A stretch of DNA of 64,000 nt from Sneathiella glossodoripedis JCM 23214 (GTDB lineage Bacteria; Pseudomonadota; Alphaproteobacteria; Sneathiellales; Sneathiellaceae). A program made the translations under genes and the position numbers. Under the pieces are notes generated by a model, which saw only the letters and a program-made list of their open reading frames with translations, searched no databases and was not told the origin of the DNA. The stretch spans positions 1 through 64,000 of the forward strand of contig NZ_BAMS01000005.1 in assembly GCF_000616095.1 (NCBI RefSeq), read 5' to 3'. Of this stretch, positions 41,176 to 43,768 are shown in pieces (the stretch's first letter is position 1; every line of letters begins with the position of its first letter).

Positions 41176-41496
41176 ATGCCGTTAGCCGTTGAAATTTCAT
41201 TGATCAACACGATCGAAGGAAAAGGGTTGGAATTTGCAGACCTGAACAAGGGTGGAAATCACGACTGGATCGTACCGCCCCCAGATGTTTTAAACCCGTA
41301 CCAGTATTTCAAATGTGAATGCAGTGGCCCTTCTTCGGGATACGAAATCGGCATCAAATACGGCGGTCTGATATGCAGAATTCTTGTAACTGCATGGGGA
41401 ATAAAATACAGAAAATCCACACCAACTACACGTGATGTGGAGTTGGTGCAGATTTCAGAAAAAGCCCCGTATCGCATGGAACTCATCCTCATTTAG
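41176..41496 (+). CDS. hypothetical protein, unrecognised
   Basis: A 106-residue soluble protein predicted to be beta-rich: strands at about residues 2-14, 38-50, 58-74 and 85-105, with a WIVPPPDVLNPYQYF segment. It has an ordinary composition, its own start with a preceding AGAGGA-like sequence, and diverges from recO. I do not recognise a family, and the converging MCP gene ends 23 bases later. Confidence 0.6.
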   Translation: MPLAVEISLINTIEGKGLEFADLNKGGNHDWIVPPPDVLNPYQYFKCECSGPSSGYEIGIKYGGLICRILVTAWGIKYRKSTPTTRDVELVQISEKAPYRMELILI

Positions 41497-41519: not shown

Positions 41520-43058
41520 TTAAGCGCGAAACTTTTTGAGGAACTCTTGTACTTCTGTCAGAACCGTATCCGTGTCTGTCACCATTTCTGTGACTGCACC
41601 AAGGACAGCCTCTGAACTTTCGGAAGACTGTTTGGCAAATTGCTCGATATTTGCCACATCGCCTTTCAAGCGCACCGTTCCGTCATAGGCATTCTTGGTA
41701 CTGCTGGAGATTTCATTAGTTGCCACTGACTGTTCTTCGACAGCAGCAGCAACTGAGGAGGTCGTTGAGTTGATTTCATTAATTGTACCAAGGATCGCTT
41801 CAATTTCCGCCGCCGCCTGTTCACTGACTTGCTGAATACCGGAAATCTGAGTTGTGATATCCTCAGTTGCCTTCGCTGTTTGAGTGGCAAGGTTTTTAAC
41901 TTCAGATGCAACAACAGCAAAGCCTTTACCTGCCTCACCAGCGCGTGCCGCTTCAATAGTTGCGTTCAGTGCAAGGAGGTTGGTCTGCTCGGCGATGTCG
42001 TTAATCAGACTGACCACTTCACTGATCTGGTTTGCAGCATCTTTCAGCTGCTCCATAGTGCCGGCAGTTGCACTTGCTCTTTCAGAGGCAGTTGTCGCAA
42101 CTTTATTCGACTGACTGACCTGAGTGGAAATTTGCTGAATGGAGGAGCTCAATTCCTCGGTTGCGGAACTGACTGCCTGCACGCTGCTTGTCATTGTTTC
42201 AGCAACACCCGTCGTTTGCATAACCTTTTCGGTTACCTCACTTGAGATTTGTTTCAAATTCTTGATGAGGTCTGACATGTTGTGTGAGTTGCTGGATACT
42301 TTTTTCAGGATGGTTCCTACGGCTTCCTCAAATTGGCTCGCAATCTCGAGACGTTCTACACGCCGCCTCTCCGACTCTTCCTCACTTGAGCGAAGTTTCT
42401 CTTCATTTAACCGGTCGGCCTCTGCTTTTAATGCTGTTACCCGCTCTGCGGCTTCAGTTGCTTCTTTACTTGCCGTTTCTGCATTTGCTTTTTCGATCTC
42501 AGCCTGTTTTGTTGCCTCACTAGCTTTCGAGATCGCCAGTTCTGCATCTGTAAAGGCATTCACTAGATTAAATGAAAGATATGTAAGTGCAGCAGCTTCA
42601 CAAATTACAATCACCGCATGCAACATTACTCGCATAAATTCCGTACCATCTGGGAATACAGCGGATGGTAATACGTAGTTCAATACCAGATGATGCAACG
42701 CAATCGTGACAGTCGCGACGATAATTGTTCTCCAGCAGCATAAAATGCCGACAACAGCCAAGCCTGCAAAGAAGTACATATGCACGTCAATTTGCCAATG
42801 ATGACCACTGAAAACATACACAAGCAAACCTATCTGAATCATAAAGGAAACCGCTGCTGCATATCGATACTGGAGAGACATACGGTTTTTCAGGGCGATA
42901 AGTGTTGGAACCACTGCGAAGACCAGAGATCCAAGTGTTGCGTACAACCAATCCGTTCCAGTGAGTAATGCTGCAATAGCAGTCAAAGGAATATGAGCCC
43001 ACAGAATAAATAGTAAGTACTTGGTGACTATTTCTCTAAGTTGGTCTAGTGCGTTCAT
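41520..43058 (-). CDS. methyl-accepting chemotaxis protein with a membrane-embedded N-terminus
   Basis: A 512-residue receptor whose C-terminal signalling domain carries the hairpin tip [28 protein letters not shown]. The N-terminal half has about six hydrophobic segments and no periplasmic ligand domain or clear HAMP. TM regions include [29 protein letters not shown] and [11 protein letters not shown], with several conserved-looking histidines. A long charged coiled coil follows. The start MNALDQL at 43058 follows AAAGGA and is preferred over 43100. It overlaps a small membrane protein gene by 23 bases. Confidence 0.92.
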
Positions 43059-43419
43059 TTGACGTCCTTTTATCAGCGATCTTCCGATCGAGGAATACAC
43101 ACCCTCCCCCTGTCACTGCATCCAGCATCAGAAAGTCATTTTTCTGAGATAATTCTTCAAAAGCTGCCGGACTATGCGTACGGACGATGACAATAAAGTC
43201 AGTTACACCGGTGCGAACCAGTTTTACTGGTAGGTCAGACAGGGCCACTACTATTTCGGTGAGGGATTTGGATGGTGAGAAAACCAGAGCAAGATCACGA
43301 GTTGATTTATCCGGTTTCATCTGAAGATACCCGAGAAGAGCGCAGCCGAATAAAATCAGCATAGAAGCCATAAATCCGGCCCTTACATCCTCTCTTGCAG
43401 TATCATTTTTCTTTTCCAA
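43036..43419 (-). CDS. small membrane-anchored protein upstream of the chemoreceptor
   Basis: A 127-residue protein with one hydrophobic segment (about residues 14-30), then a mixed alpha/beta periplasmic-looking domain with FVIVR-like strands and a [10 protein letters not shown] tail. I do not recognise the family. It starts at a TTG with CGGAG about 8 bases upstream; the nearby ATG is out of frame. Its end overlaps the chemoreceptor start, so the two are probably translated together and may act in one sensory unit. Confidence 0.62.
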
Positions 43420-43768
43420 GCTATTGCTCCGGGAATACGAATGAAAAAGACAATAAAGTGCATTAATTTATAATGAGTTAAGAGAATTCATTGGTGAGCC
43501 AGAAAGACAAATTGTCGCATTTGCGCAAAATCAATGCTGCAACCGCGAAAAAACATTATCTTTCGCAAATCCAACGGCCCTCACTTCATAGAGTTCAGTT
43601 ATGATTACGCTAAAAATCACAAATATTTCAAAGCTTTGCAGAAAAATTCTAAACAAAGATATTTATGCAATTTTCGCATTCCCTCTTGCAATGCTAATTT
43701 GGGCAATTGCATCCTATCAAATATAACGTCACTAACCACAAGATGCCATTTCGCATCGCAGCAACAAA
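43420..43768. other. AT-rich intergenic region
   Basis: No gene recognised in 350 bases. An open frame on the plus strand up to 43812 has poor codon composition and no family resemblance, and ends against the gatB terminator. A TTTA-N7-TTAA at 43467-43481 resembles a CtrA site for the small membrane protein/chemoreceptor operon. Confidence 0.55.
43467..43481 (-). promoter_or_regulatory. weak CtrA-like site upstream of the chemoreceptor operon
   Basis: TTTA-N7-TTAA, one mismatch to the CtrA consensus TTAA-N7-TTAA, 48 bases or more upstream of the TTG at 43419. In an AT-rich region such a match can arise by chance. Confidence 0.3.

Follow-up and report, generated by a model that had tools for sequence, protein, structure and literature searches.

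Several described systems come close to the locus reported here. In Campylobacter and Magnetospirillum, CetA/CetB is a bipartite energy-taxis receptor, composed of an MCP membrane transducer and a small sensor protein (PMC12442639). In Pseudomonas aeruginosa, ImcA is a six-helix membrane signalling protein controlled by the iron-binding membrane protein IsmP (PMC10904736). Six helices are also described for the class III adenylyl cyclase Rv1625c/Cya, with a proposed extracellular cation site named Ex1 (PMC9433096), and for HtrVIII, an aerotaxis transducer of Halobacterium that combines a proposed haem site with an MCP domain (PMC13401364). MHYT, an integral membrane sensor of about six helices, is named after a Met-His-Tyr-Thr pattern (PMC8846402), while McpR of Caulobacter is an alphaproteobacterial copper chemoreceptor in which a cysteine and a histidine matter for Cu coordination (PMC10579534).

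Here we describe a pair of overlapping genes found in a stretch of 64,000 nucleotides (hereafter, the window) of Sneathiella glossodoripedis JCM 23214, contig NZ_BAMS01000005.1. The features of the pair are:

41520..43058, minus strand: chemoreceptor gene, 512 aa, ATG start (ORF, PF00015 and family alignment)
41583..42116, minus strand: MCP signalling domain PF00015, receptor residues 315-492 (Pfam match, E 4.1e-31)
42564..43058, minus strand: six-helix sensor domain, receptor residues 1-165, of a family not in Pfam
43036..43058, minus strand: overlap of the small gene and the receptor gene, 23 bases
43036..43419, minus strand: small partner gene, 127 aa, TTG start, conserved beside the receptor
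43427..43430, minus strand: GGAG, likely ribosome-binding site 7 nt before the TTG (from sequence only)
43321..43410, minus strand: single membrane helix, small protein residues 4-33, predicted N-in
43120..43299, minus strand: beta-alpha-beta-beta-alpha-beta ferredoxin-like domain, residues 41-100, predicted periplasmic
43099..43101, minus strand: Cys107 of the small protein, a near-invariant single cysteine after the helix

The PF00015 match identifies the receptor as a methyl-accepting chemotaxis protein. Its machine-called frame starts at a GTG at 43100, and the family alignment backs the ATG at 43058. A candidate 106-residue frame on the plus strand (41176-41496) is convergent with the receptor gene, and other neighbours in the window presumably correspond to gatCAB, recO and parC, which they resemble by eye.

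Predicted architecture of the two proteins

No supported Pfam or NCBIfam family was found for receptor residues 1-186. A non-sensory transporter module at the N terminus, which would have spoken against the sensory reading of the first-pass annotation, was not found either. When 31 relatives of the sensor domain were compared with Pfam at E 0.1, only six weak and mutually inconsistent families were obtained; the search of solved structures by sequence, profile included, gave no match at E 10, and the sensor domain was without match in phages. The host genome contains 18 MCP matches and one single match to the sensor domain.

The AlphaFold2 model of the sensor (mean pLDDT 93.6, 18-row alignment) places helices at residues 3-33, 37-57, 62-82, 89-93/95-104 (broken), 109-128 and 141-208 (long), in agreement with the earlier view of about six N-terminal segments and no periplasmic ligand domain. 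The receptor thus fits the chemoreceptor type without periplasmic domain, with several predicted helices and no ligand domain; such receptors are class III in the scheme quoted in PMC13401364. Counted over 138 distinct sensor domains, K+R averaged 1.57 (N terminus), 1.99 (loop 2-3), 0.97 (loop 4-5) and 1.88 (following helix 6), whereas loops 1-2, 3-4 and 5-6 averaged 0.22, 0.22 and 0.83, respectively. This distribution favours a receptor with both termini inside, whose histidines would lie where the helices reach the periplasm, although loops 4-5 and 5-6 contrast weakly. The sensor had been called membrane-embedded: the six helices and the lack of a periplasmic domain stand, but the predicted position of the conserved histidines is at the helix ends on the periplasmic side.

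The small protein had been reported as a 127-residue, single-TM, unrecognised product of a gene overlapping the receptor by 23 bases, and we confirmed one hydrophobic helix and no Pfam or NCBIfam family above chance. The 28 family members compared with Pfam at E 0.1 gave two single weak hits only, and no match to PF02630 (SCO1/SenC) was found for the small protein. Against solved structures, the protein alone had no match by sequence, and the family profile gave five rows (E 0.05 to 0.95) of designed or unrelated proteins, taken as chance. The model shows the helix at 4-33 followed by the beta-alpha-beta-beta-alpha-beta domain, with pLDDT blocks of 85-92 over residues 41-100. In 111 distinct small proteins, the net charge falls from +1.38 ahead of the helix to −0.15 behind it, a contrast that predicts the C terminus, and therefore the domain, outside. 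Exactly one cysteine follows the helix in 109/111 of them; in the column of Cys107, cysteine occupies 83 of 85 aligned residues, and 26 rows end earlier. The sole sequence of the 111 without cysteine is encoded by an orphan gene with no recognised receptor nearby (L103:2968-3333), which may be decaying.

Neither model had a Foldseek match at E 0.001. The best fold match of the small domain was pro-subtilisin (Z 7.9, typical noise being 7 to 8), and the I9 (subtilisin-propeptide) family was not listed by sequence for the small family. For the sensor, the top fold match was ImcA (Z 10.4, rmsd 6.7, 199 aligned residues), followed by AC8 (Z 9.0) and Rv1625c (Z 7.1), all values often reached by helical bundles.

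As regards the described systems, the locus resembles CetA/CetB in that a gene pair would form one chemoreceptor with a small partner. CetA/CetB was the first identity suspected, and it was rejected: CetB is a cytoplasmic PAS protein with FAD, whereas the small protein here has one helix, a predicted periplasmic domain and no PAS match (window protein at E 1; none listed for 28 members at E 0.1). The ImcA PDB chain had no sequence match to the sensor profile at E 10, and IsmP is a CHASE4-PAS-GGDEF-EAL protein, unlike a small cysteine protein. The membrane domain of Rv1625c/Cya has six helices as the sensor does, its fold match being weak; to our knowledge, it has no four-histidine site and no partner protein. 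HtrVIII, compared by description, differs in that no COX1 match was listed for the sensor (31 members, E 0.1), and we know of no small partner for it. Similarly, MHYT was not among the six Pfam families listed for the 31 sensor members at E 0.1, and McpR is a single protein predicted to be cytoplasmic, without membrane helices. Among the matches listed from the open-access literature, no paper on the receptor/small-protein pair was found.

Pairing of the two genes across genomes

In the order to which the window belongs, 11 of 25 genomes carry both genes and 14 carry neither, some of the latter being incomplete, and the partner is adjacent in 12/12 receptor matches. When only good genomes are considered, both genes are found in 8/18. 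The split has a probability of 2e-7 under genome independence, which does not hold, as 24 of the 25 genomes belong to one genus.

At the level of the class (Alphaproteobacteria), the search of 289 genomes with the small protein gave 16 matches. In 15 of them, the window's own included, the small gene adjoins a receptor that shares this N-terminal domain, and only the weakest match lacks such a neighbour. Conversely, the sensor-domain search of genome contigs gave 17 named loci, with a small-family gene directly upstream in 15 and none found beside the receptor in the other two (L021, L022). Profile searches of 385 class genomes identified 56 receptor matches in 49 genomes and, at E 0.01, 86 small-family matches in 75 genomes. 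A small-family match lies within 2.5 kb of 45/56 receptors (42 upstream and three downstream, all on the same strand), and three further upstream small genes (G012 twice, G145) came from weaker local searches. In three other loci (L172, L176, L178) no small gene was found by profile, and an upstream frame of similar make-up was seen by eye. One locus (L127:40-3712) has two tandem receptors and one shared small gene, placed after the second receptor.

A sample of 398 genomes from the phylum showed the small family in 29 class genomes and in two others, whose matches (21-22 bits, inside long frames) were taken as chance. On plasmids, tblastn with the window small protein alone gave no match at E 0.1, and yet a small-family gene lies beside eight of the ten receptors fetched out of 23 found; single-sequence searches therefore miss many members.

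The co-occurrence, adjacency and order of the two genes across many families strongly support that they are a conserved unit, and the receptor and the small protein very probably form a functional one. The first-pass annotation had suggested a possible sensing unit, to be checked by the co-occurrence of the small gene; the pairing held in the order, class, named-locus and small-protein-first samples.

The same annotation had proposed to look for the N-terminal domain in cyclases and kinases, where it is indeed present. Besides MCP, the outputs of the sensor are hybrid kinases (L012 by Pfam; L015, L019, L023 and L024 alike by eye, on length and C-terminal sequence), a plain kinase (L164) and a GGDEF-EAL, i.e. 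cyclase/phosphodiesterase, protein of Roseibium (L147). Each of these seven loci has a small gene, and the variety of outputs, each with its partner, indicates that the pair is a portable input module.

Conserved residues and the SCO1/SenC neighbours

The residues that stand out in the sensor domain are:

42786..42788, minus strand: Asp91, Asp in 46/47 class receptors with the small gene, Glu in 38/38 non-class loci
42780..42782, minus strand: His93, conserved, predicted on the periplasmic side
42690..42695, minus strand: His122-His123, conserved pair at the periplasmic end of the fifth helix
42630..42632, minus strand: Arg143, present in 46/47 class receptors with the small gene and in 1/38 non-class loci
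42618..42620, minus strand: His147, conserved, at the periplasmic end of the sixth helix

Gln89, His93, His122, His123, Arg143, Val144 and His147 are invariant in the 31-row alignment. LHAVIV and [18 protein letters not shown], the motifs quoted in the first-pass annotation, are present, but H86, which comes second in the GHH stretch, varies: 23/47 class receptors with the small gene have His there. Outside the class, 37 of 38 loci (L192-L230 without L212, from 44 non-class receptor matches) retain the four histidines. Trp88-Gln89 is found in 40 of the 47 class loci with four histidines and the small gene; together with Arg143, it is a candidate for contact with the small protein, judging from residue patterns. 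Residue counts in distant rows come from an alignment made to a class profile.

In the class sample, the small gene is beside 48 of the 50 receptors that keep all four histidines, its presence being assigned by hand and, for three of the 48 (G012 twice, G145), from weak local scores. No adjacent small gene accompanies G198 or G112a, the latter being the first of a tandem receptor pair with the small gene at the end of the cluster. Histidines were lost in 5/56 receptors (G175 and G271 in the sample are of one genus), and none of those five has the small gene; G351, a cut frame starting after His93, was set aside from the count. Elsewhere, L021, L022 and L146 are also without an adjacent small gene, and two further class receptors from the phylum sample (L212, L231) miss both the full site and the small gene. 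Overall, the data support a link between conservation of the histidines and presence of the partner gene.

Overlapping genes are common in bacterial genomes, and the two genes could in principle be mere neighbours, co-transcribed without joint function. This is highly improbable given that order and adjacency are constant in many families, that the genes are jointly present or absent inside one genus, and that the small gene is absent together with histidine loss.

In the phylum sample, 44 receptor matches were found in 41 genomes outside the class. Ten of them, in nine genomes and seven families, have a match to SCO1/SenC, a copper chaperone family, within 2.5 kb; if the 95 SCO matches in 189 Mb were placed uniformly, 0.11 would be expected. 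The distances were computed for 17/95 matches, on contigs with a receptor possibly near, and all rows were compared by eye. Seven of the ten matches share the strand of the receptor, four upstream and three downstream, and the other three are encoded on the opposite one; one of the ten (G689) is weak and partial. Examples of SCO1/SenC beside receptor relatives outside Alphaproteobacteria include L148:1893-2474, L217, L222, L225 and L228. In a Marinobacter plasmid relative, SCO1/SenC stands where the small gene would be. CxxxC is present in each of the ten SCO proteins inspected (from nine of these loci and the Marinobacter plasmid), and nine have a His after Asp or Asn, which was not aligned to the known ligand. 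A DUF6436 protein, also with cysteine motifs, is upstream of two other non-class receptors. For the remaining 34/44 non-class receptors no SCO1/SenC match was found within 2.5 kb, so there the site works without SCO1/SenC or with unlinked partners. Inside the class, the 25 commonest of 59 neighbour families showed no copper theme, with the exception of one COX1; this sample comprised 72 of 80 selected proteins from 16 of 17 loci, eight being dropped for receptor overlap or the look of shadow frames.

As for the ligand, the metal or haem proposed in the first-pass annotation remains a candidate. Copper or redox is suggested by the SCO1/SenC neighbours of non-class receptors, and two other readings of the histidine site draw on the same neighbours. 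In the first, the receptor would be a haem or haem-copper oxygen/redox sensor similar to HtrVIII, with the small protein tuning or reading the redox state through its cysteine. Six helices and conserved histidines, including an adjacent pair, are consistent with it, as are the descriptions of HtrVIII as six helices resembling the cytochrome oxidase haem site joined to an MCP domain (PMC13401364) and of SCO proteins as serving oxidase assembly (PMC12617631). However, COX1 (PF00115) is missing from the six families listed for the 31 sensor members at E 0.1, and the predicted location of the four histidines is periplasmic, at the helix ends. We consider such a sensor unlikely. In the second, the pair would sense the periplasmic thiol/oxidant state: the cysteine would be oxidised or enter a mixed disulphide, the receptor would relay this, and the histidines would be structural. 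The single cysteine of 109/111 small proteins and the cysteine motifs of the SCO1/SenC and DUF6436 partners fit such a sensor, which we nevertheless regard as quite improbable, since it leaves the four histidines and the acid unexplained in receptors without a detected thiol partner.

Other partners of the small family and a proposed mechanism

The searches of the 385 class genomes left 41 small-family matches unpaired, of which 24 loci were read (the other 17 comprise one match of 38.2 bits, G197, and 16 at 20.3 or less). In 12/24 loci (L104, L105, L106, L107, L109, L112, L113, L114, L120, L122, L135, L137) the small gene directly follows an MFS gene on the same strand, with frames abutting or overlapping; MFS identity was checked by Pfam or NCBIfam in nine of the 12. 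The five MFS partners scanned resemble monocarboxylate carriers, below curated cut-offs, a group without an evident connection to metals, and their identification as the copper importer CcoA was not supported. In 3/24 loci the small domain is fused at the C terminus of DUF2243 (PF10002), a histidine-rich membrane protein:

L108:3201-4049: DUF2243-small domain fusion
L117:2423-3484: DUF2243-small domain fusion
L118:2278-3105: DUF2243-small domain fusion

No recognised partner was found in the remaining nine loci. A relationship between the sensor and DUF2243 was unsupported by profile comparison (probability 0.1), and no paper on DUF2243 was found among the open-access papers searched.

These partners are the main argument for the strongest rival, in which the small protein is a general ancillary subunit for the folding or stability of polytopic membrane proteins and the receptor alone senses. 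One partner family serving three unrelated membrane proteins fits this helper role, as does the resemblance of the MFS partners to monocarboxylate carriers. In mammals, basigin is an ancillary protein for monocarboxylate carriers, and the MFS-linked small protein is a possible bacterial counterpart of the ancillary subunits of monocarboxylate-like carriers. On the other hand, histidine loss and small-gene absence coincide, which a shared site would explain better than a folding aid; a helper does not need a strictly kept single cysteine; and some non-class receptors adjoin SCO1/SenC instead. On balance, we consider a pure helper rather doubtful.

The small protein is likely to be a periplasmic subunit of the receptor. 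With moderate confidence, we read the pair as one bipartite receptor in which the small subunit provides the periplasmic portion that the large one lacks, probably built around a metal site; for the metal site taken by itself, the case is about evenly balanced, and copper as the sensed metal is tentative.

In this proposed bipartite receptor, the six-helix membrane sensor would have both termini in the cytoplasm, and its last helix would run on as a signalling helix into the MCP domain or, in relatives, into histidine kinase or GGDEF-EAL domains. The four histidines and the acid would cluster at the periplasmic ends of helices 4, 5 and 6. The one-helix anchor of the small protein would set its ferredoxin-like domain, with one conserved cysteine, over this cluster, in place of the absent periplasmic ligand domain of the receptor. 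The pair would then most likely hold or capture a periplasmic metal ion, with copper as leading candidate and the histidines, with or without the cysteine, as ligands. Binding or a redox change could shift helix 6 and thereby alter CheA activity. Pairing, conservation, predicted topology and fold, outputs and the SCO1/SenC neighbourhood of non-class receptors were computed; physical contact, the metal, copper and the direction of the response are what we infer.

A broader and speculative possibility is that these proteins represent a new class of bipartite periplasmic copper/redox-metal receptors, in which a periplasmic thiol protein, anchored in the membrane, would complete or load a site of four histidines and an acid. 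This thiol protein would be the one-cysteine ferredoxin-like protein in Alphaproteobacteria, and SCO1/SenC or DUF6436 in some other Proteobacteria. The module would feed chemotaxis, phosphorelays and c-di-GMP, and transporters and DUF2243 proteins would have recruited the one-cysteine protein as well.

For chemoreceptors lacking a periplasmic domain, the signal sensed and the place of sensing are often unclear. One such receptor family now comes with a linked partner gene, a conserved histidine site and a single cysteine, all of them open to deletion or mutation. Both protein families are absent from the Pfam version searched, and their joint presence can be scored across many genomes. The prediction is that the missing ligand domain would be supplied in trans, which makes the pair a candidate for periplasmic metal sensing in chemotaxis.
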